Assembly: GCA_033398695.1 (NCBI GenBank)
Contig: CM065802.1
Location: 145,748,096 to 145,812,095 of the forward strand
Direction of reading: 5' to 3'
Length of the DNA: 64,000 nt
Source: Orobanche coerulescens
Taxonomy: Eukaryota > Streptophyta > Magnoliopsida > Lamiales > Orobanchaceae
Every line of letters begins with the position of its first letter. Position 1 is the first letter of the stretch. The position numbers and the translations under genes were made by a program. The notes under the pieces are model-generated. The model made no database searches. It was not told the DNA's origin and saw only the letters and a list, made by a program, of their open reading frames with translations. This document shows, in pieces, positions 2,930 through 47,204 of the stretch.

Positions 2930-3944
2930 GCCGAGGGGATGAGTTCGTGGTCGTAATCGTGGCCCGATGGCCACGGGGGATCGATGCGGAATCGAGAGAA
3001 TGCCGCTGGGAATGATTTTGGTTTGGGTGTTGCTACTATATTGCAACAAGTAGCGACTCGGATGACTCGGTTGACCTGTGGTTCAACGTAGCCTTGACGC
3101 GAGTCGAACGTTGGTGTAAATCAATGGCTTCGCGAGGTAGTTCGTATGAATCCCCTCGATTCGCCGGTCTTTGCGGATGCGTTGGGCTGGGATGGTTGGA
3201 TTTTCCGGTTGGGAAAGATTTTCGAGGTGTCGGATGTCACGAAGAGCGGAAGGTACCTATCGCTCGCACCTTCTCGACAAGGATGCTGCTAATTGGTGGG
3301 AAGCTGTTAAACCTCGTGATCGTGATGTCACGTGGGCGGAGTTCCAAGCATTTATGGAAGCTGAGTTCTGTCCGAAACCGATTAGAGAGCAGAGGATTCA
3401 CGAATTCTACTTGGCAGAACCGCAAGATATATCGGTGTCGCAAGCTATCATTGATTATAGCAAACAACTCAGTTATGTGCAAGACCGGGTGAGAACCGAG
3501 GAAGAGAGAATCCTCCACTTTGACAGACGGATGAAGCCGGATATTCGCGTGTATATGTCGGGATTCAATTGCACCTCGTTGAGGGACTATCAAGATCGAG
3601 CATTAGCCCGTGAACTAGCTTCGTTATCGTCGGAGCATGTGCCCGAGTCGAAGAAGCAGAGGAAGTCCGACGACCGTGTGGACGGTGCAGGAGTTGGTAA
3701 TTCTAGTTTTCAATGTCGTAGCCTTTCCGCTGTGAAGCTCCATCGCTCGATGCGTGGAACTGAGAGTTCCAAGTCTTCTGTTCTGACTCCTGGTAAAGCC
3801 AGGAGATGTTTTAACTGTAATGTGGCGGGACATGTTCGTGCACATTGTCCTTCTCCGCCAGTAACGTGTTACAGGTGTGGACTCGAGGGACACCGGGTTC
3901 AGTTTTGCGAGATGGTTACCGAGCATTCCGAGGCAGGGACTTGA
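2930..3944 (+). pseudogene. gag: G1 gag (capsid-nucleocapsid), frameshifted
   Basis: Gag packages element RNA into cytoplasmic virus-like particles. The readable core is the ORF at 3171-3944 (257 aa). From about residue 30 it shows the retrotransposon gag domain (DKDAANWWEAVKP, then TWAEFQAFMEAEF), and near its C-terminus two CX2CX4HX4C knuckles, CFNCNVAGHVRAHC and CYRCGLEGHRVQFC. Matching N-terminal sequence (FADALGWDGWIF) lies just upstream in another frame, and an earlier leader segment has stops, so the true start is frameshifted away. The chosen 3171 start is only the first ATG of the open piece. The gene ends 750 bp before the 3' LTR with no pol between, so the protein would work only in trans with a helper element. 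Confidence 0.85.
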
Positions 3945-4697: not shown

Positions 4698-7301
4698 TGT
4701 AATACCCGAGATCTTTATTCCGGATTCGTTGGGTTTTCTGGGTTTCATCGGATTGTCATGGTCCTCATCGTAGGAATTTCGTGCCATGTTTGGTTGCGAC
4801 TTGTTGGGACATGTTTTTGGAGGCATTCCGGATCACTTTGTGAGTTTTTGAGATTTTGTGGTGTAGCGCACGCTAATGCTTGAAGCATAGCGCACGCTAC
4901 TGCATGGTGTTTAGCGCACGCTACTGAATGTGTAGCGCACGCTAAACTGGCGATTCGAGGCGATCAGTAGCTACCGGATCGGGTCGAGCTTTGTTAGCGC
5001 ACGCTAAGGCCGATAGCTAGCGCACGCTATCGACTGCTTAGCGCACGCTCCCTCTTCCTTCTAGCGCACGCTACTCGGTAGGTGCAGTTCTGTCCAGGGG
5101 CTACTGGACTGGTTCTTGTGACCCGTTAGCGCGCGCTACGGCTGTTGGCTAGCGCACGCTAACTGTGTTATACGCGGTTTCTGGAGCGTTGACCCGTTAG
5201 CGCACGCTAATGAAGGGTGATTAGCGCACGCTAATAAGCATCGATATAAATACGGGACAGCGAGATTAAGTCGTCATTTCCCACTTTTCTTCATTCCTTC
5301 CGACGGGAGTGAGATCCAGAGGCGAGTAGGGCCGATCTTTTTCTTCTAGCTTCATCTTTGAGCGGATTTGTAGATGTTTAACAACATCTAATCGCCTTCT
5401 CGGTCCAAATCAAGGTAATCTCTTGTTAGAACCCTATTTTCTTAAATTTGGGGTTTTTGCTTGGATTTGTGATTCTTGACCGATCTCATCCGATCGGTTA
5501 TTTGTTCTTGTTTGTCTTGACCGTAATCTTCAGATTTTGTTAACCGTTCATCGATTTTTATCGCCCGGATCAACGATTCTTGATTTCTTTGAGAACACTT
5601 AGATCCTTGTCGTTTTTAGGATCGTTTCGGATTTCGATTAGTGTTATTGATTCGTGGTGATGCTATTTTCGTAGTATTCGTGGGCTGTCGAAGTCTTGAT
5701 CGTTTTTGGAGGTTCGAAGGTTTCCCGATCGTGCCCGTTCGTCGTTTCGTCGCTCGTGATATCGAGGCAAGTATCTTGTCCATACGTTTCATGTTTCGTA
5801 GGCGTAATTAATGGTAAAGGAATTCGTGCGAAACCCAATGTTTAACGAACGTAAAAAGGGATCGGTATATTCTCGATAAATGTTGTCTTTCAACGATAAT
5901 TTATGTACTTCGTGAATATATGTGTTCTCGGAATATGAGTGTTTGATTTGTATGTTGAAAAGATGATATGACCACTTTGAATGAGTTTATTAGACCGTAA
6001 TCCTTTGCCGGGGATTACGTAACGTTATGTGTACTTGTTCGTTAAGAATGTATTACGTGGGATATTAGTTGTTACTCCTTCGAAAAGGAGGTTGTGATGT
6101 TTAAGTGTTGCTTGGCTTGATGTTCTGCTCATTGTGATGTGATTGCTGAAAGTGATGTGCCTCCGGGTAGGATTGTTGAATCTCCGGGATCCATACTTGC
6201 TAGTATGGGTCGGGCGTGACCGTAGGGTTATCCAATCCGGGTATGTCTTGCGGGGACTCCGAGGTTCGGGGCTTGCTATCCCGATGCCTAGATAACTTGT
6301 GGGGTTATCATCGGGTATGTCTTGCGGGGACTCCGAGGTTCATGGCTTGTTAGCCCGATGCCGGGATAACTTGTGGTTGTGGTATGGAATGGTTCCGTGA
6401 CTGTTGTCACGAGGATATGTGATTTGGTATGGTTTCCTATTGGGTTATTCACTCGGGTATGTTCTACGGGAGCATCTGAGGTTCGTGGCTTGTTAGCACG
6501 GGACGCGAATAATCCTTAGGAACATGTGTTATGTGATTCGGGTCGTGGACCCTGTGGCTTATGATTTGGGTCTTGGACCCCGTGTGTTGTGAATTGGGTT
6601 GTGAAACCGCGTTTTATTATTGGAATCTTATTTTGGAAAGATGATTTTGGGCCGTGTCCCCAAGTGTTTTCGAAAGACTTGAGAATTCCTTATTTCCAAA
6701 TGTTTTCAAACTCCCGAGACCGAAAAATATTTTGTATGAGACACATGGTTCTTTTCCTACCTTTTATAAATCAAACTGTTTTGATTAAGTGATTTATCTC
6801 GGGAAATATATTCAAGATTTTATATTCTTGAAGCACGTTGTGTATGGCTTGTACTTTTGGTTTTATACTTGCACTAGCAAAACAGTGGAGTTTGCTAACC
6901 CCAGTATTCGGGGGTGGATGTCTGTGTGCGTCGGTACTTGCGGTAGGTGGGAGCGAATCACAGGATCGATACGAAGGATGATGGGAAACGAAGATACTAA
7001 TCACGTGAAGACCAATTTTAGAGTATTTGGTAGAGTCGTGTTGGTTATCCCTCCGATGTGTTGTTACCCCTATTTATGGGAGTGTTATTGTATTCTAGCC
7101 CCTGCGTGGGTATGTGTTCTGGGCAAGTATCGTATATGTAATGTTGTGTGTGTTGTGATATAAGACCTAATCGGTCTCACGGTCCTTTACGTAGCCATGT
7201 CGGCATGTGAAGTGATGCATTGTTTTGTATTTAGCCTGGTAGATCCTCGCGGAGAGGGTCTGCGGCGCTGTAATATTCCCGATTGGTTTGGGGGTGTTAC
7301 A
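4698..7301 (+). repeat. G1 3' LTR, complete (2604 bp)
   Basis: The LTR starts TGTAATACCC directly after the purine tract and ends TGTTACA at 7301. U3 holds twelve copies of a 12-bp palindrome and a TATA box at 5245-5252. Downstream are an AACCCTA-containing leader, the motif AGGCAAGTATCTTG at 5765, tandem 75-bp units near 6230-6370, and the AGTGGA hairpin at 6876-6896 (one stem base deleted relative to the 5' copy). Confidence 0.93.
4864..5252 (+). promoter_or_regulatory. G1 U3 palindromic iterons plus TATA box
   Basis: Twelve copies of TAGCGCACGCTA (ten exact; one ends in C, one has core GCGCGC) start at 4864, 4888, 4912, 4933, 4995, 5018, 5039, 5062, 5127, 5150, 5198 and 5222. Steps are 24, 24, 21, 62, 23, 21, 23, 65, 23, 48 and 24, so most are one or a multiple of about 21-24 bp. 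A TATA box (TATAAATA) at 5245-5252 follows 11 bp after the last copy. The placement suggests upstream activator or silencer sites of the LTR promoter. The binding protein is unknown. Confidence 0.8.
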
Positions 7302-9240
7302 CATATGATCAAGAAACTCACCGAAGTGACAATAAGAATCAACGAGGTCAACGATTCAAAGGTGATGAACTTGGGAATGCAATCCCATGGTGAAATACGG
7401 AACATCATCAAGAACAATATCGAACTACGAATCACAGATTCATTAGTGTTTCATATACACAAAACATATAACCATCACAAGAATTCAATCATCATTATAA
7501 CCAAGCAAGATAACTTGCCTCAATTCTATAGGTGAACGATTGTCTTTCTACAAACGATAAAACGGACGATATCCTCGATTAAATACTCAATCGAACAAGC
7601 AACCTTGAACGAAACGTAATTCATTCAATAATACAGTCGCACAATATTGATATCAATTCGTAGGAAACGACACCCGAGACCTACTCGTTCAATTAATTCT
7701 ATTTCAATGAACATTTGATCAACTGTTGGTGAAATTCAATACCTTTAATTCGGCTTTAATAATCAGATTACCATACTACAATATCCTCTTGAATACTCTT
7801 GTTATCACTATAAACAAGTTCATACATTAAACACCTTCAATTCACCATTAACAATCAGATTATCCAAGTTCTTACGGTTCTTCAACATCTACCTCTATAC
7901 AAGGACCATAATAACGAATTCAATGCTCAATATATTATGACATTAACATCCAAAATTAGTATTACCTTCTTAAGAACACTATCCACTTATTATGATGATC
8001 AATACATTCCTAAGGCATCAATACAACCGATTTTCATATATAAGAGTTATAGTCGTGTTCATCAAAACCCTTTTATCATTTCTCAAAGACTTGGCTAAGC
8101 CAAAAACAGAAATGAAGTTATAGTTTTTAGGTTCAAGAACATTACCCTAATCTCTAAAAATCATCAAGTTCTTAACATGGTGTTCTAATACATTTTATGT
8201 CAACAATTCCATCGATTAAACTTAACTACGATGAAACTAAGGATTATTATTGTTCTAATGCTGTTAATAATTTAGCAAGATGAGTATGATTCTGATAAAC
8301 ATGATCATTACCATTAAAACATCAAGAACATCTTCATTCCAAACCCTTAATTACCATATTCATCAATAAGTGTTAGAAATCTTAACTACAAACGTGCTTT
8401 ACTTGATTAATTCAACCCTAGGTGTAGTATAACATATCACTAACATTATAACTACGAAAATATAGAGTAGAATCGCACAACATACCTTCAGAAATGAAGA
8501 ACAACCACCAAAACCACAAAAACACACTCCAAGCTTCAAGAACAACTCTAAACTTCCAATCAACAAGCTCCAATCCAAGATGCAAGGCTCAAACACAAGT
8601 TGGAATGGAGTAAAGTCGGTCTAGGGAGGCAGGGGTATGATTGTTGGAGAGAAAAATCGGAGTTTGGACGTGCAAATGAAAGACACAAGCTGTCTTTTTA
8701 TAATCTGCACAGCTCTTTACGTACGTTATCGCATGAAGATAACCTACGTTAACCCCTTTACGTACGCTACACCTAAAATGTTACGTACGTAATCTGCCTC
8801 CAGAGGCTACTGCCTCAAAATACCAACATCATTACGTACGTTATGGCCTCATCATTACGTACGTAATGTATGTCAACTTGGCTGTCTCGAAAGGGCCAAA
8901 TATCCGGATCATGTCCGGTCCCCACGCCGAAAGTTGAGATCGGATAAGATTCCAAGCATTACGTACGTAACCCGCATTCCATTACGTACGTAAAGCCAAC
9001 GAATTAGCATACGTTAAGTTAAATCCTTAGAGTACGTTAAACACAGAAAACCTAGCCAAAAAATGTAACAATCTACACAACGTCAAGAAATCAAACACAA
9101 TGCGAATGACAATTATAATCAAGTCTATTCTGATATATCCCGACATTAGTAAACATTAACTAAATGTAACATGATTACAACGATACTCAAATTATCCGAA
9201 TAATACAACAGTAGATAAGAAATTACTATCGGATATTACA
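7302..9240 (-). repeat. F: Ty3/gypsy LTR fragment (minus strand)
   Basis: Read on the minus strand this begins TGTAATATCC at 9240, has a palindrome array, then a TATA box near 8694-8705, then a long leader containing GAGGCAAGTTATCTTG (plus 7507-7522). It stops abruptly at the G1 3' LTR, so G1 inserted into it. No polypurine tract lies next to 9240, so it is the 5' LTR of a minus-strand element or a solo LTR. The part beyond the G1 insertion is off window. Layout is like that of LTR A, but the sequence is largely different. Confidence 0.75.
8694..9040 (-). promoter_or_regulatory. F U3 palindromic iterons and TATA box
   Basis: Copies of TTACGTACGTAA (exact and one- or two-base variants) start near 8717, 8740, 8758, 8781, 8832, 8855, 8959, 8982, 9005 and 9028. 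Steps are 23, 18, 23, 51, 23, 104, 23, 23 and 23. The minus-strand TATA box (ATTATAAAAA) is at 8694-8705, on the promoter-proximal side of the array. The 23-18-23 step pattern recurs in LTR A. Confidence 0.75.
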
Positions 9241-9560
9241 GATAACTTGTCTGATCCTCGACTGCAATAGTGTTTTGGTCAAACCTCTCTGATAATTTCT
9301 GTTGACCAAAACTCGGCTGGTAATTAACTTATCTGATATTTAGACAGTTATATACTTGGCCGATTTTATAACTGATCAACACTTGATCAAGACTTAGCCT
9401 AAATTTTAAGGCCTATAGAAGATACTCATTTGGTTATTCTTTACAATTCCAAGTACTTAGAGCATACATTTGAATTAATCATGAATACAAGGATGATATC
9501 ATCAAAATCTAAAATAATATTCCTAACAAAATATTTTGTCATCATCAAAAAGGGAGAGAT
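9241..9560 (+). other. Tail of a copia-type internal region ending in a polypurine tract
   Basis: AT-rich and non-coding. Its last 32 bp (about 9529-9560, GTCATCATCAAAAAGG and flanks) match the 32 bp before the K1 3' LTR with about one difference, so a polypurine tract lies outside the K1 5' LTR. The rest (9241-9528) does not match the K1 3' internal region. It may be the remnant of a related upstream element. Confidence 0.55.
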
Positions 9561-10920
9561 TGTTGAACAAATCTATTTCGATGATGCATTCCATCAAAAC
9601 ATTTAAAACAAAAACATCAAAGACTCGTTCAGATATCAAAACGGCGTATACTCTATCATAAAACAAAAGCTTCAAATCAAGACAAATTAGCGCATATTAT
9701 TAAATGATATTAGTGCACGCTACAAGAGGTAACTTAGATCTATTCTGAAACTACATAGCGCACGCTACTGATACATATAACACACGCTACCTGCTCTGCG
9801 TGCAAAGGTCAGTGAAGTCTGCCAGCCATATCTAGCACACGCTACCATGAAATTAACGTATGCTATGAAGAACTGTTAACGCACACTACAGATAAACTTA
9901 ACGCACACTACCTAATAATTCCTACAAGACAGTGAGCTCTGGACATCAAACAGAGTAGCAGTCAACGCACGCTACATTTATGTTTAGCGCATGCTACATG
10001 AAGCATTTTCAATATTTATTCACCAACAGTTAGCGCACGCTAACTGGTATATCTAGCGCACGCGAAAAGTTGAAAATCCTATCGTTGGACAAACATCCGT
10101 TGCTTGACCTTCTAGAACACGTAAATCACGCAAGTAACAAAAAGGTCTGGACGGCTAGCTAGCGCATGCGAAGGAATATACTAGTGCATGCTACATTCAA
10201 ATTACTACCGTTGGAAGTATTTGTCAAACCCAACTGCCATATTTGACCGAAGTTTAGTGCACGCTAAAGGTAAGTTAGCGCACCCTAATAACTTATGCAG
10301 TAATGGCTACAAGGCCTCAAAGATCTATAAATACCATTCCACTTGGTATGGATGAAGACACAACTTCAAGCAAACATACATTATATTGAGCTTTGATTAA
10401 TTGCTATATATTTTCTATTTAAGTTGTGACAAGAAAGATACGAGTGTTATTCTCATATTGTATTATTTCATATACATCGTATCTTCTTCGATTGTTGTGA
10501 GTGGTGTATCAGTCCTTCACGAGCTTGAGAGAAATGAATCAAGAATTTTAATCCGGTGTTATTAGGATCATTAATCCGGAATTATTAGGATTAAATTTTG
10601 ACGATCGTAAGTGAGGATTATCTAGTTCCTATAGAACACTAGAGAGAAATTTTTATTGAGTGATTGGTTGTGCTTGGACCAATCGAAGCCAAACATTGTA
10701 ATCGGTTGTGCCCGTACCTATAGAAGATGAGGCAAAGTTGAGTGTGGTTTTTCCTGAGCCAATAGAAAAAGAAACTTAGAGAGGACGTAAGCAGTTTATT
10801 GAATCTCTATAAATCTTCGTGTCTCTTGCTTTAAATATTTTTGTTTATTATAACCGAAGAAATAAATATTTATCAACTCTACTATTCAACCCCCCTTCTA
10901 GTGGAATTATTTACTCTACA
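9561..10920 (+). repeat. K1 5' LTR (1360 bp)
   Basis: Starts TGTTGAACAA and ends CTCTACA two bases before the PBS. The first 470 bp align to 17822-18295. U3 carries sixteen degraded palindromes and a TATA box near 10325. The palindromes differ from the 3' LTR copies mostly by C-to-T or G-to-A at CpG. Confidence 0.9.
9688..10331 (+). promoter_or_regulatory. K1 U3 palindromic iterons plus TATA box
   Basis: Sixteen copies or near-copies of TAGCGCACGCTA start at 9688, 9711, 9756, 9778, 9833, 9854, 9877, 9899, 9963, 9985, 10031, 10054, 10160, 10182, 10255 and 10276. Neighbours within a pair are 21-23 bp apart, and several larger gaps are near multiples (45, 46, 64). CTATAAATA begins at about 10324. 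The motif is the one used in the unrelated Ty3 element G1. Confidence 0.75.
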
Positions 10921-10922
10921 GT

Positions 10923-10933
10923 TGGTATCCGAG
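10923..10933 (+). other. K1 primer-binding site
   Basis: TGGTATCCGAG lies two bases after the LTR end. It is a one-base variant of the initiator tRNA-Met complement common in copia elements. Confidence 0.8.
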
Positions 10934-10979
10934 TGGTCACCTCTTATATCGGTTTAACCACCGGAGGAAAAGATCCGCA

Positions 10980-12044
10980 ATGGCTCTCCATCTCAAATCG
11001 AAGGTAATGCTCTCAACCGTCCACCTTTCTTCGATGGATCTAACTTTATGACATGGAAAAGAAGATGGCTATCTTCGTCCAAGCTTATGATATTGAGATA
11101 TGGAAGGTGATTGCTCTTGGTCCTAAACTGGATAAGAAAGAAGACGGGTCATTAAAAAAATTCGATGAATATAATGACGATGACTGGAAAAACACGCACA
11201 TCAACTCTCGTGCCACTCAATTACTATACTGTGCTCAAAATCCCAAAGAACTTAATCGTAACTCTACATACGAAAGTGCTAAAGAAATCTGGGAAATTCT
11301 TGAAGTTACTTACGAAGGAACGACTCAGGTCAAAGAGACTAAAATCAACATTCTCCTTCATGACTATGCATTATTCTCTACGAAAGAGGATGAAACAATC
11401 ACAATTATGTCGGATCGCTTCTCGGCTATAACCAATAGGCTAGCCTCAATTGGAAAACCGATTTCGAGCAGTGATAAAGCCAAAAATATTCTCCGATCTT
11501 TACCCCGTGAATGGGATGCCACTGTTACGGCTATTATGGAATCCAAAGATCTCAACAAATTGGAATTTAGTGGTCTTATCGGATCACTTACTAATTACGA
11601 GATTGCGCTCAAGTCTAGAGGATCCAAGCAAAGCCTCGTGAAAAAGTGGTTGCTCTCAAAGTTGATAGCGACGTTGAGGATGAAGGGCTGGAAGACAAAG
11701 ACGATGAGGAACTTGCCTTATATGCCCGGAACTTCATAAGGTACAAAAATCTTATCCAGAAAAATCTTATGCCCGGAACCTTCCTCGGTCGAGACTCCAG
11801 GATGGAACAAAAGAAAAACACATATGTTCCAACCAGTAAATTCGATAATAATTGTCGAAAATGCAGTCAACCCGGACATTATGCTAAAGAATGCCGAGTA
11901 ACTACTTCCAAACCTCAAGTTGAAAGATACAAAAAGAAAGAAGTGTTAATTGCTTCTTGGAGTGATGAGGAGGAGGAACTTGAAGGACCACTAGATGCAA
12001 ACCTTGCTCTTATGGCTCTCAAATCAGAAAATACTCAGAGGTAA
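10980..12044 (+). pseudogene. gag: K1 gag
   Basis: Copia gag forms the cytoplasmic particle. An ATG lies at 10980, but the gag frame (FFDGSNFMTWKRR) is joined to it only through a frameshift. A second shift near 11055 leads into the long open piece 11053-11739, which has the UBN2/gag core (ATQLLYCAQNPKE, KEIWEILEVTYEG). A third shift near 11645 leads to 11646-12044, which contains an acidic stretch and one zinc knuckle, CRKCSQPGHYAKEC, at about 11853-11894. Total length is normal for a SIRE-like gag. Frameshifts rule out a product. Confidence 0.85.
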
Positions 12045-12640
12045 TATCTAGTTTCGATGATAATGATTTATTAGATACGTGTGATCAATAAGCTCTTACT
12101 CATTATGATGAGCTTTTAAGTGCGTTTGAATCATTAAATATAGAGTATGACGAGATGATGGAACTTAATATATTTTTAAAAAGAAAATCAAGTCTTTAGA
12201 ACTTGAAAATTCGAAACTTCAAAATGAAGGCAAAAATGTTAAAATAGACCATATCTCTTACATTAATAATGAAAATAATTTGAAAATCGAGTTGTAAAAA
12301 ACTCAAAAGGAATTAAAATATATAACGAACAAACTTGGTAATGAGAAATTTGAAAGACTTTTATCCATTCAAAAATCTCCTTTATTAAAACACGGTCTTA
12401 GTTTCGATCCATTCAAAAGAGAACAATCTCTTATAAATCCTGACAAAATTAAGGAAACCCGGAATCAGAGTCATTTACGAGAAGTGAATGAAGAAAGTAA
12501 CAACAAAGTCCGTTCAAAATTGAGGACAATAAAAGTTCGACAAATTTGGGTTCCTAAAGGGATGATAGTTCCAAATTCCATTAGTATTATTAACTTTAGA
12601 GGACCCAAAAAGGCTTGGGTACCAAAACAACCAAAACAAA
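12045..12640 (+). pseudogene. K1 gag C-terminal spacer, degraded
   Basis: Between the zinc knuckle and protease the reading is broken into short pieces by stops. It is lysine- and glutamate-rich, consistent with the coiled-coil gag tail of SIRE-like elements. The fragment RQIWVPKG near 12537-12560, a usual marker just before the copia protease, shows the order is retained. Confidence 0.6.
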
Positions 12641-13950
12641 CTATGTTTGCAGGTACCTTATTCAAAGGAAAGCAAGTGGTACATTAACAGTGGTTGCTCA
12701 AGGCACATGTGTGGCACCAAAGAGTTGTTCGAAGATTTTGAATATCAAGAACAAGGATTCGTGACCTTTGGTGGCAACAAAAAGGGGAAGATTATGGGCA
12801 CCGATAAGGTTGGTAAGGACCTCCTCCCTCTATTAATAAAGTCTTATTTGGTGAAGGATTACATCATAATTTACTGAGTGTATCTCAACTATGTGACGAA
12901 GGTTTTAAAATTATTTTTGAAGAAACTCATTGTACTGCCTTAAAAAATAACAAAGTTGTATTTATTGGTTTAAGAAGTGGAAATATTTATATCATTGATC
13001 TTTGTGATGAAAACTCTTTCAATGAAAAATGCCTTATGACCTTAGATGAAAATGCATTCTTATAGCATCGAAAATTAGGACATACGCCATTACCTATTAT
13101 TTCCAAACTTTCTAAACATGATCTAATTCGTGGTTTACCAAAATTGAAATTTGATTGAAAACACTTATGTGAATCTTGCATTAAAGGAAAACACACAAGA
13201 GAATCATTCAAACCCAAATTTTAAATTTCTACTTCTCGTACTTTTGAACTTTTTCATATGGATTTGATTGGACCATCTAGATATGCTAGTTTGAATGGTA
13301 AATTCTATACTTTGGTTATTGTGGATGACTTTTCTCGTTTTACTTGGGTTAAATTTCTCACTCACAAGGATGATACTTTTACGGATTTCTAAATGGTGTC
13401 GTTTAGTTCAAAATGAGAAAAATCTTTCTATTATTTCTATTCGAACCGATCACGGAGGAGAATTTGATTGCTCTCTTTTTGAATTATTATGAGACAAATA
13501 TGGAATAAATCACAACTTTTCGGCTCCTAGAGCCCCTCAACAAAATGGGGTCGTTGAAAGGAAAAATCGTTCTTTCGAAGAAATATCTAGAACTATGTTA
13601 AATGAATACTCTCTTCCTTAATACTTTTGGGCCGAAGCTATTAATAGGGCATGTTATACAATTAATCAAGTTCATCTTTGTAGATCTCAACTTAAAACTC
13701 CGTATGAAATCTGGAATGATAAAAAGTCAAATATTTCTTATTCTCATCATTTTGGCTGCAAAGTTTTCGTTCATAATACCGGTAAAGAGAATATGTGAAA
13801 ATTGGACTCTAAATATTATTCAGGCATATTTCTGAGATACTCGTTAAATAGTAAAGATTTTCGTATTTACAATTTAAGGACAAATAAAGTAGAAGAATCC
13901 ATCCATGTTAAATTTAATAAAGCCATTTCATCGCCGAGAAAGGTAGATTC
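12641..13950 (+). pseudogene. pol: K1 protease and integrase
   Basis: The protease motif reads INSGCSRHMCG, so the catalytic Asp of DSG is Asn. The GAG-pre-integrase zinc-binding piece follows (HRKLGH near 13069, CESCIKGKH). The integrase core then shows HMDLIGP near 13255, RTDHGGEF near 13443, and PQQNGVVERKNR near 13539, the three acidic positions. Stops interrupt at several points, including just before HRKLGH, and the frame changes repeatedly. In life this product would cut gag-pol and insert the cDNA; here it is dead. Confidence 0.85.
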
Positions 13951-13999
13951 GTTTGATGATGGAGGTACACTTCCCGATCTTCAAGTCGCAAGAAATGGA

Positions 14000-15610
14000 G
14001 AAAAAGTGTGAGATTCATGAAGAAGAATTACCTATTGAATGGAAGAATATTAAAGATCATCCTAAATATCTCATAATCGGGAATATTCAAGATGGGGTTC
14101 AAACTCGTAAAAGATCTTTAGACTACTTGAATAATTTTGTCTTTGTGTCCGAAGTTGAACCCCAAAATGTTTCAGAAGCTCTAAATGATGAAAATTGGAT
14201 AACGGCTATGCAAAAAGAACTGGATCAATTTAAGCGAAACAAGGTTTGGAATTTAGTTCCCGCACCAGTGGATAAACCTCTGATCGGGACAAAATGGGTT
14301 CATAAAGTTAAGTGTGATGAAGATGGTTATCCAGTGAAAAATAAATCTCGTCTTGTCGCCCAAGGCTATAATCAAGAAGAAGGCCTAGATTATGAAGAAA
14401 GCTTTGCTCCAGTATCTCGTCTTGAAGCCATTCGACTACTCTGTGCCTTTGCATCTCATAAAAAGATTAAACTCTTTCAAATGAATGTTAAAAGTGTATT
14501 CTTAAATGGCATTAAGAAGAAGTTTATGTGAAGCAACCTACAGGCTTTGAGGATTATGAATTTCCAGACCATGTCTACAAGCTCAACAAAGCCTTATACA
14601 GTTTGAAGCAAGCACCCCGAGCATGGTATGATCGTTTAAGTGAATTTTTAATTTCTAATGACTACAAATGAGGTAATATAGATAACACACTTTTTGTACA
14701 AACTGTAAATAAATATATTCTTGTGTTTCAAATTTATGTAGACGATATAGTATTTGGAGCAACTAATGATTCTTTATGTCAAGAGTTTGCAAGTCTAATG
14801 AATGGGGGATTCGAGATGAGCATGATGGGAGAATTAACTTTCTTCCTAACAATGTAAGGATGAAATCTTTATCCATCAAATTAAGTACTCAAAGGATCTC
14901 CTCAAAAAGTTCAAAATGGAGAATAGCAAAGTTATTTCCACACCGATGTCATATACTCTAAATCTCGATAAAGATGAAAATGGAAAACCTGTCGATCAAA
15001 AACTTTTTCGAGGTATGATCGGTTCCCTGCTTTATTTAACTGCTTCTTGACCTGACATAATATTTGCTACGTGTTTATGTGCTCGCTTTCAAGCTAATCC
15101 AAAGTAATCGCATCTTATGTAAGCGAATTTTTCGTTATCTAAATGGAACAATTGGACTAGGTTTATGGTATCCATCTTGCCTAGATTTTAATCTTATTGC
15201 TTATAGTGATGCCGAGTTTGGTGGTTGAAAAATTGATAAAAAGAACACAAGCAGAACACGTCATTTTATAGGCTCTTGCTTGATTTCATGGGGTAGCAAG
15301 AAAAAAATGAGTGTAGCTTTATCTATCGTCGAAGCTGAATATGTTGCTGCCGGTAGTTCCTGTGCACAGGTACTTTGTATTAAAATCAACTTAGGGATTA
15401 TGGCATATTTATTGAAAACATCCCCATTTTATGTGATAATACTGGTGCTATTAATCTTAGTAAGAATCTGGTTTTGCATAGTAGAACTAACCACATTGAT
15501 ATAAGACATCATTTCCTTGGAGATCACATTTAGAAAAAGGATATTCGTTTAATTTTAATCGATACAAAAGATCAACTTGCTGATATATTTACAAAACCCT
15601 TACCCGAGAA
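14000..15610 (+). pseudogene. pol: K1 reverse transcriptase and RNase H
   Basis: RT begins with GTKWVHKVKCDEDG and KSRLVAQGYNQEEG. After a frameshift near 14520 it continues [11 protein letters not shown] and the catalytic YVDDIVFG at 14735-14758. RNase H is recognisable by ISWGSKKK and VEAEYVAAGSS in the open piece from 15280, then DQLADIFTKPLPEKT up to about 15614. At least five stops or shifts lie between these blocks. Order after integrase confirms Ty1/copia. Confidence 0.88.
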
Positions 15611-15725
15611 AACTTTAATAATGTTCATTTACAACTCGGTATAATACACATCGACAATTTCTAAAAGACTATTTTTATTATTTGTCTTATGAGAAATATC
15701 GATACTTGAGATTTTCACCTGGACC

Positions 15726-15945
15726 TAGCGCGCGCTAGAATTCCTCCGTAACGCGCGCTAAATAAAATCCCTAGATTCATCTATTTCACTCGAACCCGAT
15801 AGCGCACGTTACTTATAAGTTTAACGTACACTAATTAGTTTCCTTCAAAAGGCCTGAAGGTTCTGGACTGAGTACAGTGGCATATTTTTAATCGATAACG
15901 TACACTATCTCTTACATAGCGCATGCTCTAAATCTAGAATATATC
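15726..15945 (+). promoter_or_regulatory. Internal copy of the K1 palindrome module, ahead of the accessory ORF
   Basis: Three pairs of the U3 motif lie outside the LTRs: TAGCGCGCGCTA at 15726 with TAACGCGCGCTA at 15749 (step 23), 15800 with 15822 (22), and 15896 with 15917 (21). A TATA-like AATATAT follows at about 15938, and the accessory ORF starts at 16073. The arrangement copies the LTR promoter, so an internal promoter for the accessory ORF is plausible. No transcription evidence is available. Confidence 0.55.
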
Positions 15946-16072
15946 ATTAGAAATTAGGAGATCCCCTTCTTTATTTTCATCAACCTTAAACTCTCCCGGC
16001 GGACAGAAACCCAAAATTCATCCACCAAATCCTCAAATTAATCCAAATTCATCCGTAACCACCTTCACCAAA

Positions 16073-17270
16073 TGGCTAGCGGATCGAAAGCACCAGCAAA
16101 GAAAGCATCTAAACACCCTAGAGATTCTGAATTCAATTCGGACCGATTCATTTCTTCCATGGCTCTCAAGGTATTTTTCCAAAATTCTTCCTCAAGAACA
16201 CATTACAGACTGCTACCATTTCAATTTCGGTAGTTTGGACCGCGTGGGTGTCGAAATCCTAGAGTTTTTCTCAATGTTTGGTATTGATCGATTTGTTGAG
16301 TGTAAAGAGCCGGTCTATCCGAATCTAGTGAGAGAGTTCTATGCTAATCTTCATGTTGGGGAGAATGAGTCTTCTCCACCTTTTGTTCTTCAGAGTTTGG
16401 TTGGTGGAATTTGTGTTAAAGTTTCATCTGAAATTTTGGAATGAATTATTTGGTTTGTCAAATGAAGGTTTTGTATGTTCTGGGAAATCTATTGAAGATA
16501 AAGAAACTGGTGTGACTGAATTAGATGTTCGGGAATTTCTAAGCTCGAAAGCGGTTATTGAAATAACCAATGATATTTTTGAAAACAACGACTTTGGTTT
16601 TCGAATTCGTCTCTTGTTAGTTGCTTTACCAAGTGCTTGATGCCTAAGGTCAACACTCAACACAAGTTGGTTGGGGTTGACAAACATGTCGTTTATCGTG
16701 TTTTGAATGATGATAAGGTGAACTTTGCGACTATTGCAGTTGGATAAAGGCTAAAGGTGATGTATTTTGTTCTATGCATTACGCCTCTCGGTCAAGAAAG
16801 GCCGAAATGCCTTTTGGTTAGATTCTCATGGTTATTTTTAGACATCATAATGTGGATATGTCTAAGGAGGCTGCAGTTCCGGTGTCCCGGGGAGACGAAA
16901 TTTCTGACTCAATGCTAAAAGCCATACATTATGTTGAAACTATAAACAGAGGATGGGTGTTGTTTTCATATTCAAGGAAGATGATGAGGTTGCTAAAGGA
17001 ACTCGTGTGCCGACCCCTGCTGAGCGAATAACACGTAGAGGGCCAGAAACATTACGATAATTGCAAACCGGGACATTCGTCCATTTTCCTAAATTAAAGG
17101 GAAAAAAGAAAATGAATGGAGAAGCTACTGAAGATGATGACTTAGTTGCACGTATGCGAACCCTTGAAACAACACAAATTGAAATCCGTGATGACATTCG
17201 TGCTCTTCGGACTCAAGTACGAAATGAAATTCACTCCATCAAGTCCCTCCTTGAAGACTTCATATGCTTT
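16073..17270 (+). pseudogene. K1 accessory ORF, plant transposon-protein-like
   Basis: The ATG at 16073 opens a basic N-terminus (MASGSKAPAKK). The frame is lost after about 35 codons and resumes near 16220. The stretch LVREFYANL with a following V-G-G-I block and NELFGL resembles the Transposase_32 'putative plant transposon protein' family. The C-terminal piece (about 17115-17265) is a short heptad-like coiled coil (MRTLETTQIEIRDDI). It sits between RNase H and the 3' LTR, the env-like position of SIRE elements. I see no signal peptide or membrane segment. Function is unknown; the family name rests on recalled resemblance only. Confidence 0.6.
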
Positions 17271-17821
17271 ACCAATCCCTCATTCTCTTTCCTACCCCTC
17301 ATTTCAACCCAATCCCATAAATCTCATTTGTTGAGTACTTGTTAGAGACAAATATTTTGCTTCGTATATCTTGATGAAACGTGTCTTGAATTTATGATTA
17401 ACTTGCTTGGCTTGATCAATATGTGATTTAATGTTGGTTTATAAATATTTGATAATTATCTTGATTGGATGGTTCATTTTTGATTGCTCTATACAGGTTG
17501 GATCATTACATTTCAGAATATCATAGTTTTATCTAACCATGTATTTTAGTTTATAGCTAGAATTTTAAGCTAGAAGCTATAAGTTGTTTGTTTGCTTAAG
17601 GTTAGGAAAGCTCCATTTCAGGGGAGCTATGTCTGTTTACCTTTTTTATTGTGACAAAAAGGTGGAGAAAAAGATAGAACATTGAACATTTGTTCTTGAC
17701 AAGATTCAAAAATCTCTAACAAAATCGAACAAAGTAACAACTTTGATTCGAAAAGTTTTCTTTACAAATGTTTGCAGGTATATCTTGTTAAATATTTTGT
17801 CATCATCAAAAAGGGGGAGAT
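17271..17821 (+). other. K1 3' non-coding region and polypurine tract
   Basis: AT-rich, no coding signal. Ends ATCATCAAAAAGGGGGAGAT directly before the 3' LTR, a typical copia polypurine tract. Confidence 0.8.
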
Positions 17822-18295
17822 TGTTGAACAAATCTATTTTGATGATGCATTCTATCAAAACATTTAAAATAAAAACATCAAAGACCCGTTCAGATATCAA
17901 AACGGTGTATACTCTATCTTAAAACAAAAGCTTCAAAATCAAGATAAATTAGCGCACATTATTATATGATATTAGCGCACGCTACAAGAGGTAACTTGGA
18001 TCTCTTCTGAAACTACATAGCGCACGCTATTAATACATATAGCGTACGCTACCTGCTCCGCATGTAAAGGTCAGTGAAGTCTGCCATCCACATCTAGCGC
18101 ACGCTACCATGAAATTAACGTATGCTATGAAGAACTGTTAACGCACGCTACAGATAAACTTAACGAACGCTACCTGATAATTCCTACAAGACAGTGAGAT
18201 CTGGATATCAAATAGAGTAGCAGTCAACGCATGCCACATTTATGTCTAGCGCACGCTACATGAAGCATTTTCAAGATTTATTCACGAACAGTTAG
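17822..18295 (+). repeat. K1 3' LTR, 5' part, cut by K2
   Basis: Matches 9561 to about 10032. Its palindromes (starts 17950, 17973, 18018, 18040, 18095, 18116, 18139, 18161, 18247) keep more intact CpGs than the 5' LTR copies. It stops after GTTAG at 18291-18295, where the K2 LTR begins. The rest lies beyond the window. Confidence 0.88.
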
Positions 18296-19547
18296 TGTTG
18301 GGATAAACAATCATATTTTGATAATTGCCATCATACAGCAAAGAAGTCGAAAGAGTTAAAATGCCGCTAAGTATGGAAGCTGTCTGGAATCTCCATACAT
18401 CCCTTCTATATAGCATTGAAGATCTCATACAGTCTATCCTACAGAACCATCCTCATATAGCAAAAGATGTAATACGTTGATTACAGCATACAGACTGAAG
18501 GTGTTTTACTTAGGAAAAGTAAAACACATCCAACAGGACTGAATATAAAAAGGCTTTAAACATTTGTGAGATAAATATTGTTTATTCACAAAGTATTCAT
18601 AGTTAAAGCTGCATTTATTGTTGATAGGACATCATTTAATGCAGCTGGGTGAGACAAGTCTGAACGCATTGAAGAGCATTTAATGCGAAGTCAAAAAGGA
18701 TGTCTAAAGCATTAAATGCGATCTGGTTTAATTTAAATATTCAGCAAGCTGCCAATCAGAGACGTCAACATCTCACCTACCTGCATCAGCTACATTTATA
18801 ACGGATGCATTTTCTATGTTTATAAATAGCCCCAAGATGAGGACTTAAAGAAGCGGCTAACACTTGATATATTCATACTCGCGAAAGCTCTGACAAAGAT
18901 TCTGACAATTTAAGCTATATCAAGAGCATGTATATTTCACAAGCATACAACGTATCTACAATGAAGAAATATACTAAGTTCGCAACAAGAACAACACAAC
19001 ATACATCAAATGTATATCAAAGATCAAGCTGCTATTCGGAGAATTCTACCCTTTACTGTTGAGATAATCATCAGCCATGTATGGACTGAAGATCCTTGTG
19101 TTTTCCGACCTGAGCGGGAAGAATAGTATTAAAGACGAAGCTTCGATCTGTGTGAGAAGAAGCGAGTCAAGAAAGAGCTCAAGCCAATCTGTGTGAACCA
19201 AAAAAAGCTTTGGTCCCTGTATCAATATGTGTGAACGATATAGCGACATGTTTAGTTATAGTCATGTAGTTGTGTACGTAGTGATTATAATAAACTATTT
19301 ACTCCTGTGTGGAGGACCAGTGGACGTAGAGGGGTTTACCTCGAACCACTTTAAATTATGTGCCATTTATCTTCTGTCTTTATTGTTTTCATAACTGTGA
19401 TTTTTATACAAGTATACATTGTAAAATCCCATACGCACTAAGCAAATAGGAGAACGCCTAGTTGCGTATTTACAACCAATTTCGAAAACCGTACAACTTA
19501 TTATGTTTCCATATTCAAACTATTTATTGTTTACTAAGTGGACAACA
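18296..19547 (+). repeat. K2 5' LTR
   Basis: Boundaries are inferred from TG at 18296 and ACAACA at 19547 just before the PBS; the partner LTR is not in the window. A TATA-like TTTATAAATAG lies near 18820. No tandem palindromes are present, a useful contrast with K1. Confidence 0.75.
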
Positions 19548-36570: not shown

Positions 36571-38886
36571 TGTAACACCCCAAACTAGGCGGATATTACA
36601 GTGCCGTGAATCCCCGACTGGGACCCACCAGGCAAATGAAAATGATGAATTAAATAATATAATCGTAGTACCGAACCACATTATATTACCAAGTACTCCG
36701 ATGAGGAGTTTAAGTACATTACACCAGACAAACGGAATACTAGTATATTTTATATGGAGATAAAATACACCACCACTGAACAAATAAGCATCTCAAACGG
36801 AATTTGCGGCGGAAAAATACAAATGACGGAATAAGCGAAATGACCGAAAATGGTGAACAAGCGGAATGACTGGGCCCCCTACTAGTATCATCGGGACTCG
36901 CCGCCAACATGCTCTTCCGTGCCTTTGCCTTGCCGTGACTAAAACAAAATCCCAACGGGCCGATTATACGTAACAACAATCCTCAAGGGTTGAAAATACA
37001 CAATCATGATTAATCAAGTTATGAAATATTCTTAGTTATGAATTACGCCAAGAGGAGTATCATAGTACGCCCGTAATGTTCTCGGCGAGTGTACAACACC
37101 CGTCCGTGTACCTAATTAGTCTCACGGTGTAACGCTTTCCCGTGTGCGGTCTAATGTATCGGTGAACCCAATACATAACCATCGTGTGCCCGACTAAAAA
37201 TTCCACACGGCCACACCCGCCACGCAATATGAACCCGAAGGTCATATGAACGAGAATGACCGTAATGAATATCAATGAATAAATAATAATCGACAAAGTC
37301 AAGAATGACTCACCGAAATGAGGGTAATAATGAAATGAATGATAGCTCAACGAAAGGATTGGAACCGCTGCTCCTTATGATCAAGTGATTAATTGACAAT
37401 AACAAGTTTTAATATGATTAATACAATGATGAATGAGTTATGATTATGAATGATCAACAACAAAAGGTATGAATATCTTTTTTACCTAGTATGAATTAAC
37501 ATACTCAATACAGGAGACAACAATCCTTCCACGAACGACGTCCTAATTGAGATATCGATCGCTCGAACAACCTTGAATTATACAATATTCAACAACCCGT
37601 TCAAAATACGAATCAAACACGAATATAACTAACTCAAAACGTCGATACGAATAAACCAAGTTCATTGAGGTATTAAATCAAACACGTTGCGTCCAAACTC
37701 CGATTGTTTACAATCAAACTTCAATACACCAATATCAAATCCCCCAAGAAGTGTTTCAAACCAGTAAAACATCTCCAATACGATCAATAATCCGATATGA
37801 ATATCCAAAAACGTGATTATAACAACAATTAGTCGAAAATCCCCAATTCCAACTCGATATTCAAGGTGTTCTTGAATAATCCATCAATAATCCAATGAAT
37901 CCTTATACAAACTCATAATCATATACATATCCCTTCATATAACATGATTATAACGTCCAAAACATCATATCTCAACACAAAATCGAAGTCCAAAGTGTTG
38001 AAAGAATTACCTCTTGAAGATACAAGTACTTTAATCCAAGAACACGCGTTAGATTGATTATCCGGCTTCACGATCGAAAGGAGATGAAGAATATCAAACA
38101 ACAAAATGATTTGTGAAGGAAAACCCTCCCTCAAGCCTTCTCTCTCGGTTTAAGGTGAAGAAAAGGAAGAAAAATGGGCTGAAATCTTGAAAAATGAATT
38201 TATAGGGTTGACTACCTGCCGACACGGCCGTGCCGATCGGCACGGTCGTGTCGCACATTTGGCCGACAGTGGCCGACAGGACTCGACCGTGTCTCGCTGA
38301 CACGGTCGCGCGCGAGGGCCTTCCGATAGTGACCCGTCCGACGACTTCGGCATGACTCGGCCGTGCTGCACGACACGGTCGGCGTGCCGGGCGACGATTC
38401 TCGCTTATCCGAAGGGTTCGACTCGGCCGTGCTAGACGACACGGTCGGGTCTCGAGGCGTACACTTCCGGCACTTTCCGGACGAGCACGGCACGGGCCGT
38501 GTCGGACGACACGGCCGAGTTCGTTCGGCGTGATCGCCAAAACTAAAAATGAGCGGTTGAGCTAAAACGACCATAACTCTCTCTTAGGACTCGATTGACT
38601 CACCGTTTGAACCATTGGAAAGCTAACTCGATGCTCTATAATATTGCAAAGATTTAGAATTTTTGGAGTTACCAAAAATTAATGGTGATCTAACAAAGTC
38701 GAACTCATATGAGGAAAGTTGAAACAATGAACAATAACGATACACCACTCGAAGTTTTTCCGAACGGTGAACACGGTGAATGAATATGATTGGTGAATGA
38801 TGATAATCGAGTGAATATACACTGGGTGACAATTACAGACTGATAATTACTGAATGAAAGTGAATGAATTACAACCGGGTATTACA
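36571..38886 (-). repeat. C 5' LTR (2316 bp)
   Basis: Matches 29671-31968 over its length. Followed on the plus strand by ATGCT (38887-38891), the target duplication. TATA box on the minus strand at about 38197-38205. Confidence 0.95.
38197..38525 (-). promoter_or_regulatory. C U3 paired palindromes and TATA box, 5' LTR copy
   Basis: Pairs of CACGGCCGTG-like sites: 38223/38241 (step 18), 38282/38301 (19), 38356/38374 (18), 38422/38440 (18) and 38491/38510 (19). Within each pair the two sites are roughly complementary (CTCGGCCGTG with CACGGTCGGG). The pitch is shorter than in the other families. Confidence 0.7.
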
Positions 38887-44052: not shown

Positions 44053-46619
44053 TGTAACACCCCCAATCCGCTCAGGGATACTACACGCCGTAGAACCTTT
44101 CCTCAAGGATCTACCAGGCTGGTAACAACATAGAACAACTCGACAATGCCTTTAAGGATAAAATTACTAAGTAGACCGATTTGGTCTTTCAATAAATACA
44201 TACAACTCAAAATCATTACATGCCCACGCAGGGGTCGAATACAACACACTCCCGTACAACGGGAAAGAATACTGCAGCGGAAAATAAACTATAACTAAAC
44301 CAATGACGCCATACGGATCCTTGTGTGATTAGTATCGTTCATCTTTCATCATCCTTCGTGCCGACCCTGTGTTATGATCCCAAACCTGAATGCAAAAACA
44401 GACATCCACCCCCCGAATACTCGGGGGTTAGCAAAACTCCACTGATTTGCTAGTGCAAGAACAAAGTGCAAATATGAGCCATACAATTCACATTCCACGA
44501 ATCACAATAACCAGGAATCCTCAAAGATCCAAACGTAACAAAAAGTACTTCCCGAGGCAAGAGTTTGGTAAACATTTCCAAAACCGAAAGATCACAAATA
44601 AAGAGAAACAATTTATAAAACAGTTTTAAAGATGCCATCGAGAGTTTTAATAGAAAACAATTTAGGATTATCAAATCCTTCTCTTTCCAAAATCAACAGG
44701 GTCCTCGACCAGTAGGCGGAAAGCAATTTGCAAGAAAGCCACTCAATCAACACAAACGAGTCTTCACAAATATTTCCCACGGGGTTCTCGACCCAATCCA
44801 AATAACATCATCACGAAATCAATCATCTCAACAATCCACAGGGTCCTCAACCCAATACACAGAATAACACCACAATAAAATCAAAGGTACAAACTCTCAT
44901 TCGACATATCCTGCTGAAGACCCCTGATTAATGAACCCTCGGAGATTTCGTCAAACCTCCTTGGTTAATTAACCCTGATACCAACGCTTTAAAAACAAGT
45001 TGAAACAAGCTTTCAAAAACATGAATCGCGGTCTATATCAAGACAAACATTTAAAAGGGAGTTGAAAGAATTGAGATACGAACATCGTTGATAGCAAGTC
45101 TTAGCTATCACTCAAATACCTGTAACCAATAAGCCTGCCAGGCGCCTCCATTGCGCACCTGTGCACCGGCGTTCACTCCACTATGTTGGCCGCTCCTTGA
45201 ACATGTCACTGCGCCGGCGATCACTCCCGCAAGAGCCGCCCCTTGACACACGCATTATGTAACACCGGCGTTCACCACCCATATGGAGCCGCACATTGCA
45301 GCGTACACTAGGCCGGAGTGCACGCCCCGCCCTCAGAGGCTCCCGGATATGACGTCTGTCATAACAAGTATTCACATTGTCACAAACATCAAGCACACAG
45401 TCAATCGTGTAACAATTATCAAATCAATACACCAATTCACATAATTCATCCGTCAGTCCACGACCACACGAATAAATAACAACACGCTCGTCAACCATAA
45501 CGCGACGGAAATAAGCAATATACGTACGCACACATTATCAAGCGAAACCTCAACACCAAATATATCCAAAGTATTCACGTAGTCACTTACAACCCACGCA
45601 ATTTACAAAACACACGCATTTTGAAAGTGAGCCTTTAACGAGGCTAGCCGAATCTTTTGAAAACTCATTTCAAACAAACAAACAAACAAACAAACATACC
45701 CAGACGATCACCAATCATCATATCCACAAAACAAGAAATGTATGGACAAGGTACTTGCCTTGAACAACCACAACGCGGAGAATCGACCGAAGTAGGTTGG
45801 CACGAACCGACTACGAATCCGCCGACTCCACCGGACGCCAACTCGCGATAATAAACTACGGAGGACAATAAAAACAATGAAAATGAATTCCATAGCATGA
45901 CTTAAAGCCGTAGAATTCAAAGAACGAACGCCGAATGTTCAAGTGTTTTCCCCAAAACGGCCAAGAACACGATTCATCCCGACAAAACACGAAAACGGAA
46001 TTCCAAGTTGAAATATGGATATACAATCCATAGAATATGTTTAACAACATCATTTAACCACAATCGATCCATAAAAAACGGATGGAAAACGAGATCGAGA
46101 ACAAATCCCCCAAAAAGTCGATTCGAAGGAAATCAAGAAATATACTTCGATTCGACGAAGAACAATGAATTAAATGATGTTAAACACAAGAATACTACCA
46201 AGATTAATCATAACCATCATGAATTAATCAACAACATGGAACGAATCGGACAAAAATGCAAAAATTCCCAAATTCACGAAATTAGGGTTCTAAGGAAGAT
46301 TACCTTGATTCGCTGGATCAAAGGATGATAACGGATGATTTATTGATGATATAACCTCAATAACTTCGAGGATTTGTTGTCCAACAACATGGCTCCATGA
46401 TAAGCACACCCTCAGCCGCGGAAGAGAAGGAGAAGAAGGAGAAAAATGGCCAAAAACCCGACTGCAGGGCCTTAAATAGGCTGACTGCACAGTGTGCCGC
46501 GGCCCAGCCGAAGTGTGCTGCGGCACAAGGCTGAATCTGCCCCAAGTGATCGGCAGTGTGCCGCGGCCCGGACGAGTGTGCCGCGGCAGTGACTCGGCAG
46601 TGTGCCGCGGCCCTGCCGG
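44053..46619 (-). repeat. B 5' LTR, truncated by D
   Basis: Starts TGTAACACCCCC at 44053 and ends at GCCGG (46615-46619), where D begins. The AGTGGA hairpin is at 44430-44451, AAGGCAAGTACCTTG near 45749, and the TATA box on the minus strand near 46469-46479. GTGTGCCGCGGC sites start at 46492, 46513, 46556, 46576 and 46600 (steps 21, 43, 20, 24). The rest should lie beyond the right edge of the window. Confidence 0.9.
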
Positions 46620-46970
46620 TGTAATATCCGCAATTTCGGATTTCTGGTAATTTTCTTTTTTCAGCGGAGGTCCGTTTTGACGACTCGCTTGGGATGGTCT
46701 CGTCATTCTGTGAATGATTAATTATGCACTTTTTGTCATCCGAGTTCGTTTCGGTGTCGTTCTGTTGAATTCCGTGTTCTTTAGCGACTTTTCCACGTAT
46801 GAGTTCGACTTTGTTAAATCACCATTAATTTTTGGAAATATTATAAATCATCAAGTTATCTTTCAAATGGTTCAAACGGTGAGTCAATCGGAGTCCGGAC
46901 GAAGGAGTTATGGTCGATATAGCTAAGTCACTCACATGTTCCAGTTTTGGCCAAGCAGTCTGCCGGAAGG

Positions 46971-47204
46971 GCCGCGGCACACTTGGTCGAGCCGCGGCAC
47001 GCACACATTTTTCAATCTTCGGCCGACCCGTCTGTACCTTGTGCCGCAGCACATGCCGACGGGGCCGCGGCACACTGCCGAGTCACTGCCGCGGCACACT
47101 CGTCCGGGCCACGGCACGCTGCCGATCACTGGGGGCAGATTCGGCCCTGTGACGCGGCACACTTCGACTGGGCCGCGGCACACTGTGCAGTCAGCCTATT
47201 TAAG
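46971..47204 (+). promoter_or_regulatory. D U3 palindromic iterons plus TATA box
   Basis: GCCGCGGCACAC sites start at 46971, 46991, 47043, 47064, 47088, 47108, 47151 and 47172, with steps 20, 52, 21, 24, 20, 43 and 21. TATTTAA begins at 47197, just after the last copy. The motif is the complement-oriented version of that in B. Confidence 0.75.

Follow-up and report, generated by a model that had tools for sequence, protein, structure and literature searches.

Why should the long terminal repeats (LTRs) of otherwise unrelated Ty1 and Ty3 retrotransposons carry arrays of short palindromes, set about two helical turns apart, and what could such arrays do? An earlier note had drawn attention to them in several LTR families of one 64,000-nucleotide stretch of the Orobanche coerulescens genome (hereafter the window, contig CM065802.1). 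Here we have followed the arrays through the window, through a sample of the rest of the genome and into the literature on comparable systems; the features located in the window are collected in Table 1.

The array of the G1 element comprises units starting at 4864, 4888, 4912, 4933, 4995, 5018, 5039, 5062, 5127, 5150, 5198 and 5222, with steps of 24, 24, 21, 62, 23, 21, 23, 65, 23, 48 and 24 bp in order. Each unit is a 5-bp inverted repeat around a 2-base centre, which is the non-palindromic CA in 11 of the 12 units, all eleven in one and the same direction; the twelve 12-bp palindromes of the earlier note thus hold as to coordinates, steps and distance from the TATA box, but not as to strict palindromy. 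The TATA box itself barely varies, with at most one of 28-29 copies differing at each of positions 5246-5251. The 5' LTR of G1 begins upstream of the window (its array lies in locus L009) and ends near 1381, and the gag-like ORF between the LTRs carries a Retrotrans_gag domain, PF03732, through which we assign G1 as the 3' LTR of a Ty3-type element; the pol queries of the window gave no match in the G1 interior between the LTRs. G1 was also considered as a Sirevirus and rejected, as it shows PF03732 in place of Ty1/copia proteins and its LTR opens with TGTAATACCC, directly after AAGAGGGGTAGAA, in place of a AGGGGGAG junction.

Table 1. Arrays, promoter words and associated features located in the window (positions in the 64,000-nt stretch)
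Feature	Position	Strand	Remarks
G1 gag-like ORF (Retrotrans_gag, zinc knuckle)	3150..3941	+	Pfam
G1 3' LTR (~2.6 kb)	4698..7307	+	start from TGTAATACCC, end from homology
G1 U3 array, 12 dyads TAGCG-NN-CGCTA	4864..5233	+	runs of 4+4+2+2 at 21-24 bp steps
G1 TATA box TATAAATA	5245..5252	+	11 bp after end of last dyad
Family F array, 8 TTACGTACGTAA-like dyads	8717..8993	-	steps 23,18,23,51,23,104,23; TATA-like match on - strand
Likely Sirevirus, LTR copy before gag, 15 TAGCG-class dyads (at most 2 mismatches)	9711..10287	+	8/14 steps 20-24
Likely Sirevirus linker, six TAGCG-class dyads (at most 2 mismatches)	15726..15928	+	steps 23,51,22,74,21; before env-position ORF
168-codon open frame after pol, env by position only	15938..16441	+	weak PF20167 match, below cut-off
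Sirevirus polypurine tract AGGGGGAG	17812..17819	+	10 bases before LTR start inferred from TG
Likely Sirevirus, downstream LTR, 9 TAGCG-class dyads (at most 2 mismatches)	17950..18258	+	5/8 steps 20-24
Family A array, 6 dyad positions TTACG(TA/GC)CGTAA	23115..23266	-	TATA-like match on - strand
Family C array, CACGGCCGTG	38223..38519	-	weakly periodic; TATA-like match 18 bp off, - strand
Family B array, TGCCGCGGCA class	46495..46612	-	steps 21,43,20,24
Family D array, TGCCGCGGCA class	46970..47180	+	steps 20,52,21,24,20,43,21

The same design recurs in families A, F, B and D, whose previously listed steps were all recovered, those of family A from aligned copies: 19 of 21 show steps of 23, 53, 23, 18 and 23 bp, and the decayed units of the window copy give 23, 94 and 23 in a strict scan. 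For family C, said to use 18-19 bp, steps of both lengths are present (a single 18-bp step at 38223; 18, 40 and 19 in the second LTR), but the periodicity is weak. The LTR pair 48932-50095/58984-60147 holds no dyad array of at least four units; five dispersed copies of CTTAGGTCGG occur in it at 49297-49481 and 59349-59533. Elsewhere, the stretch 21610-22421 contains a dispersed repeated word, TTACCGACGC / GGCGTCGGTA, with several 12-14 bp steps and no dyad symmetry, as well as CGCCATTTTGGCG. AT-rich dyads at 25360 and a tandem repeat at 53144 were rejected as instances of the same phenomenon; the latter, of about 54 bp (53144-53479), has a conserved AGGCG(TTT)CGCCT dyad, adjoins a Ty3 pol with RVT_3 and recurs in L019 at 5951-6390.

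Beyond the window, 29 further stretches at round-number coordinates, amounting to 240 kb of the 3.65-Gb genome, were scanned for at least four non-tandem copies of a CG-containing dyad with 5-bp arms, with five dinucleotide shuffles per stretch (1.2 Mb in total) as control. The scan returned 33 such arrays (LTR pairs counted singly and two AT-rich kinds left in), 32 of them with a 20-24 bp step, in 16 of the 29 stretches, and none in the shuffles. With the window included and arrays clustered by their flanks, 19 clusters yield 155 steps, of which 88 measure 20-25 bp, against a mean of 23.4 and a maximum of 40 in 2000 runs of uniform placement; these clusters are what is left of 24 after two tandem-like and three non-CG ones were dropped, and still include two AT-rich dyad arrays (window 25360 and L038 4462). 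By motif class, and with similar arrays removed, steps of 20-24 bp make up 68 of 114 for TAGCG (null mean 13.2, maximum 26), 41 of 77 for TTACG including TTACGGCCGTAA (9.6 and 19) and 31 of 60 for TGCCG (7.2 and 16). These margins are too generous, because old block duplication makes the steps not fully independent. The modal step depends on class, at 23/24 bp for TAGCG, 23 for TTACG and 21 for TGCCG (rank test of TAGCG against TGCCG, 8e-10), and just 8 of 251 steps over the three classes measure 25-41 bp. A perfect dyad word was present in 21 of 52 dispersed 10-mer arrays; many of the remainder are TAGCG arrays, imperfect through their centre, and others are non-dyad. The pattern holds up, and it extends through this genome more widely than the window by itself could show.

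A second element of the window with TAGCG units, at 9529-18295, encodes a Ty1/copia gag (PF14223) and a reverse transcriptase (PF07727, RVT_2) in Pfam searches, and the closest named relatives of its gag are in Orobanche minor (79% identity over 82%) and O. gracilis. Palindromic units lie in its LTRs, the first LTR array having a TATA-like word downstream, and more of them precede an open frame that is env by position only; TAGCG-class dyads were not found at 11000-15400 with up to two mismatches allowed. Homology of the downstream LTR to the other stops at 18295, and the polypurine tract sits within the inverted repeat CATCATCAAAA/TTTTGATGATG. Many copies of the tract are reported for every Sirevirus in the available text of PMC2829016, and here a single exact AGGGGGAG was found in 9001-18400, with no multiple identical tracts in the linker; assignment to Sirevirus nevertheless stays likely, though not certain, because of the remaining features and the variation reported in the same text. 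The LTR family K1 of the earlier note would fit this Sirevirus LTR, in which 8 of 14 steps are 20-24 bp. Ahead of the LTR copy before gag, at 9500-9570, the inverted repeat occurs again together with AGGGAGAG, which resembles a polypurine tract; this LTR may therefore serve two copies in tandem, or may be the 3' end of an adjoining copy, and a nested arrangement is also conceivable. Two more arrays follow a Sirevirus junction, at L026 3769 and L038 1274. The L038 family (C16: 69997965 and 70001149) shows Sirevirus-type LTR copies about 3.2 kb apart, with several such pairs among the 40 matches listed, which suggests short non-autonomous derivatives.

Arrays of this form are not without precedent, as had been supposed. 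Bousios et al. (2010) described repeated motifs in Sirevirus LTRs that are palindromic, contain CpG and precede the TATA box, and the text available (PMC2829016) gives these RM boxes eight or more copies per element, a sequence varying by family, no known factor and, in env-bearing Sireviruses, further boxes upstream of env; it reports them as specific to Sireviruses and as missing from all other Ty1/copia elements examined there. The arrays here share with RM boxes their palindromy, mostly CpG-bearing units, many copies, position upstream of the TATA box, family-specific sequence and extra occurrence before env, and differ in being found also in Ty3-type LTRs and in having a measured step of 21-24 bp. 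The CGG-CCG core given there for 12 of 13 published RMs is missing from TAGCG-NN-CGCTA and TTACGTACGTAA (the TAGCG and TTACG-TA classes), appears with its triplets reversed in order in TGCCGCGGCA, and is present in TACGGCCGTA, TTACGGCCGTAA and CACGGCCGTG, all in Ty3-type LTRs. By these sequence features, the arrays are best described as a variant of Sirevirus RM boxes extended to Ty3 elements. What is new here is that a Ty3 LTR has the same 12-mer, step and centre orientation, that the step is quantised and class-specific, and that related LTRs differ in class. In the open-licence literature we found no such arrays reported for Ty3 elements, and the motif words, used as a text query, brought up no retrotransposon title among the matches listed.

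The TAGCG class is common to Sirevirus (Ty1) LTRs and to G1 and L031, a sharing that the earlier note does not mention for G1 and the Sirevirus, and outside the units the Sirevirus arrays show no homology to G1 or L031 at E 0.01. In the seven TAGCG arrays whose direction is known (three Sirevirus, two Ty3-type and two oriented by TATA alone), the centre is CA in 61 of 77 units, TG in 3 and something else in 13; this count leaves out the other seven of the 14 TAGCG arrays, which lack a direction and some of which have mixed centres. The motif was said to change from family to family; this is right in part, as a few classes recur and one is common to a Ty1 and a Ty3 element. L028 is a Ty3 chromovirus with TGCCG arrays in its LTR pair, the two copies being 97% alike over 1016 bp and flanking RVT_1 and Integrase_H2C2 domains (rve and Chromo matches fall below Pfam cut-offs, Chromo at E 2.4e-4), and other elements such as L031 are Ty3 only by LTR start, one that we take to be typical of plant chromoviruses.

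Related LTRs, 76-85% identical from the TATA region onward, also differ in class. The LTR at L025 4758 (TGCCG) is 79-85% identical over 233-494 bp, from the TATA region into R/U5, to LTRs beside TGCCG units (window 47181, 46494 and 41001; L024 130) as well as to LTRs beside TTACG or TACGTACGTA units (window 23091, L020 8352 and L025 1198), and the differing arrays begin within about 25 bp of this homology. Furthermore, L020 and L025 4758 are 83% alike upstream over 380 bp; between the conserved parts lie 501 bp with five TTACG units in L020 and 287 bp with four TGCCG units in L025 4758, segments that retain some likeness (best local score 23.5 against a maximum of 23.0 and a mean of 15.4 in 300 shuffles). 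Since conserved LTR parts flank differing arrays, the array would have been either exchanged or rebuilt in place.

Over the 37 classed arrays, a TATA-like word starts 11-21 bp after the array in nine and farther off, at 34, 41 or 44 bp, in three others, where about 3-4 are expected by chance (0.021 per 30 bp; search of 70 bp either side). The other 25, including all 11 TGCCG arrays, have no TATA-like word within 70 bp; the TGCCG array locus L025 has TATTTAA at the aligned place. An array also stands ahead of the env-position ORF in the Sirevirus, which speaks against a role confined to the LTR.

Comparison of copies (29 of G1, 19 used of 21 of family A and 11 of family F, being those most similar to each query and sharing ancestry) shows that the lengths of short gaps are largely kept: without exception in the 11 copies of family F (six gaps, 18-51 bp), in 16-18 of 19 at each of five gaps in family A, and in 26-29 of 29 at eight gaps in G1, where the 62-bp gap takes eight lengths. 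This gap (4945-4994) is hypervariable, with 157 of 1410 letters differing among the 29 copies and 72 of 5097 in all other G1 spacers, and by itself holds 157 of the 229 G1 spacer changes. Outside CpGs, units change less than spacers in family F (3/704 versus 79/1836), family A (34/882 versus 88/1227) and G1 (15/2725 versus 145/5600, or 69/4575 without the hypervariable gap). Special protection of unit CpGs, an impression gained from nine copies, was not borne out by the larger copy sets (units 30/441 versus spacers 18/262 in A and 22/352 versus 9/152 in F); in G1 without the hypervariable gap, CpG changes are more frequent in units (24/1449) than in spacers (3/522). The TAGCG unit has sharp edges, with no more than 0.3 bit in its flanks; in the TGCCG class, two extra symmetric positions appear on each side, beyond the search pattern. 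Selection by pattern accounts for part of the high information within units. In G1, the low-variation stretch extends about 5 bp ahead of the unit.

The idea that the units face one side of the helix is not supported: 23-24 bp make 2.2-2.3 turns at 10.5 bp, a run of 24, 24 and 21 rotates more than half a circle, and a run of four units thus drifts around the helix. Long gaps do tend to multiples of about 10-12 bp in two classes (at 10.5 bp, p 0.011 for TAGCG and <0.001 for TTACG), but not in TGCCG (p 0.89); the best long-gap periods are 8.25, 11.5 and 7.75 bp for TAGCG, TTACG and TGCCG, respectively.

From sequence and position, we infer that the arrays are probably promoter-proximal regulatory modules of LTR retrotransposons, built of cooperative dimer sites for a factor that the host would likely encode. 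Each 12-14 bp dyad would serve as the site for a dimer of a sequence-specific DNA-binding protein, and with neighbours 21-24 bp apart, two to four dimers could be in contact and bind as a cooperative group close to the TATA box, the array influencing transcription as an enhancer or as an operator for repression. A host-made protein is favoured because site, step and centre orientation are common to otherwise unrelated Ty1 and Ty3 elements, and because G1 shows a gag-like ORF only. The several classes would correspond to several factors or specificities, and a lineage of LTRs may switch class when the array between its conserved parts is replaced or rapidly rebuilt. From a symmetric homodimer one would not expect a fixed CA direction, which could have been passed on by duplication.

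It is less likely, and on balance rather doubtful, that the arrays are bound by an element-encoded factor resembling VANC, which would lift silencing, with motif classes tracking protein specificities in an arms race. According to Hosaka et al. (2017; PMC5735166), VANC targets are tandem motif repeats in the noncoding DNA of VANDAL elements, varying between related TEs, and VANC6 motifs are present also in AT9TSD1, which is unrelated to VANDAL. The arrays here are likewise short, lie in TE noncoding DNA and diversify between related TEs, motif class differing between related LTRs, and an extra ORF, likened to dsRNA-binding proteins, is mentioned in sunflower Tekay elements. VANDAL, by contrast, is a DNA transposon that encodes its own protein, and the VANC21 motif YAGTATTAY has no dyad (PMC5735166); moreover, one class, step and orientation serve both Ty1 and Ty3 here, G1 has its gag-like ORF only, and Pfam named no transcription-factor-like domain in the ORFs scanned, a subset of window and locus ORFs that are mostly fragments. 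Slightly less probable still is a role of the arrays as RNA or DNA hairpins, unit pairing with unit to form small-RNA hot spots and invite host silencing. Palindromes of maize Sirevirus LTRs, which resemble the arrays in occupying the LTR regulatory region, are described as rapidly evolving hot spots of small-RNA mapping (Bousios et al. 2016, Genome Research, as summarised in PMC5311732), and the RNA of the G1 array folds more stably than its shuffles (z -3.2, 60 shuffles). Good folding is nevertheless expected of any repeated dyad array, a single unit gives just a 4-bp hairpin of -2.2 kcal/mol, and pairing leaves the class-specific step, the fixed centre direction and the place before the TATA box unexplained.

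Perhaps the arrays merely grew by block duplication, the step being a neutral relic of the first duplicated unit. Long spacers do resemble one another more than chance would have it in L031, L016, L027 and L017, four of the seven arrays compared (p<=0.003), and weakly in a fifth (L038, 0.047), though such likeness was not found in G1 and family F, and block copying copies steps too. Against this, in five of the seven arrays the short spacers resemble one another no more than shuffled sequences do (p 0.013 for G1 and L038, the remaining two), a comparison whose power is low for such short sequences; elements that are unrelated show the same step, and non-CpG variation is lower in units. We regard a wholly neutral origin as improbable, a shade more so than hairpins. 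Multi-unit blocks appear to have been duplicated in some arrays, and the 21-24 bp step is evidently not a fresh tandem repeat: the unlike short spacers in five of seven arrays rule out simple 23-bp tandem duplication, which the earlier note had named as the outcome that would count against it, but duplication of larger blocks did come to light. A signal for RNA dimerisation, packaging or reverse transcription, conceivable in that U3 is also the 3' end of genomic RNA and that unit RNAs are able to pair (calculated -12 to -14 kcal/mol), seems very remote, given that the array stands before the TATA box and also before the env-position ORF, and that such a role needs neither CpG in the classed units nor many copies. 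Selection for a spaced array of dimer sites, as first proposed, retains the backing of sharp-edged dyads, kept short gaps, unlike short spacers and reduced non-CpG change in units, but the single helix face lacks support.

A mechanical analogy to the favoured reading, cooperative dimer sites, comes from a phage. IMG/VR contig L089, which also codes for a terminase, a portal and a VapE-like helicase, has at 5761-5933 an array of TTACGTACGTAA-like dyads, eight in number and 22-23 bp apart from start to start; an ORF of 98 aa that is weakly similar to CopG/RHH (E 0.03, under the cut-off) follows directly. This looks like an autoregulatory or partition array, presumably akin to iterons or operators; it has the same geometry as the plant arrays, presumably by convergence, and we imply no kinship. 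Unit pairs of the TAGCG, TTACG and TGCCG classes occurred in 0, 1 and 7 IMG/VR contigs, respectively, and the seven TGCCG contigs hold no 20-24 bp array of TGCCG, two of them holding 12-bp tandems.

A bolder extension, which we put forward tentatively and consider unlikely as it stands, though less so than the element-encoded factor, is that the arrays form a shared promoter code: a few spaced dyad classes, each with its own cooperative protein, would be used across Ty1 and Ty3 elements, class switching would escape silencing or shift the expression niche, and unrelated parasites would compete for the same factors. If the regulatory reading is correct, the RM boxes, described in 2010 and with no known factor, would become a wider and testable system, for which 12-14 bp probes with defined spacing suggest themselves. 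Extrapolation from 33 arrays in 240 kb gives about half a million arrays genome-wide, which on that condition would amount to a large stock of regulatory DNA ready for use, and LTRs that are related but differ in class would document how the promoters of parasitic elements have turned over.
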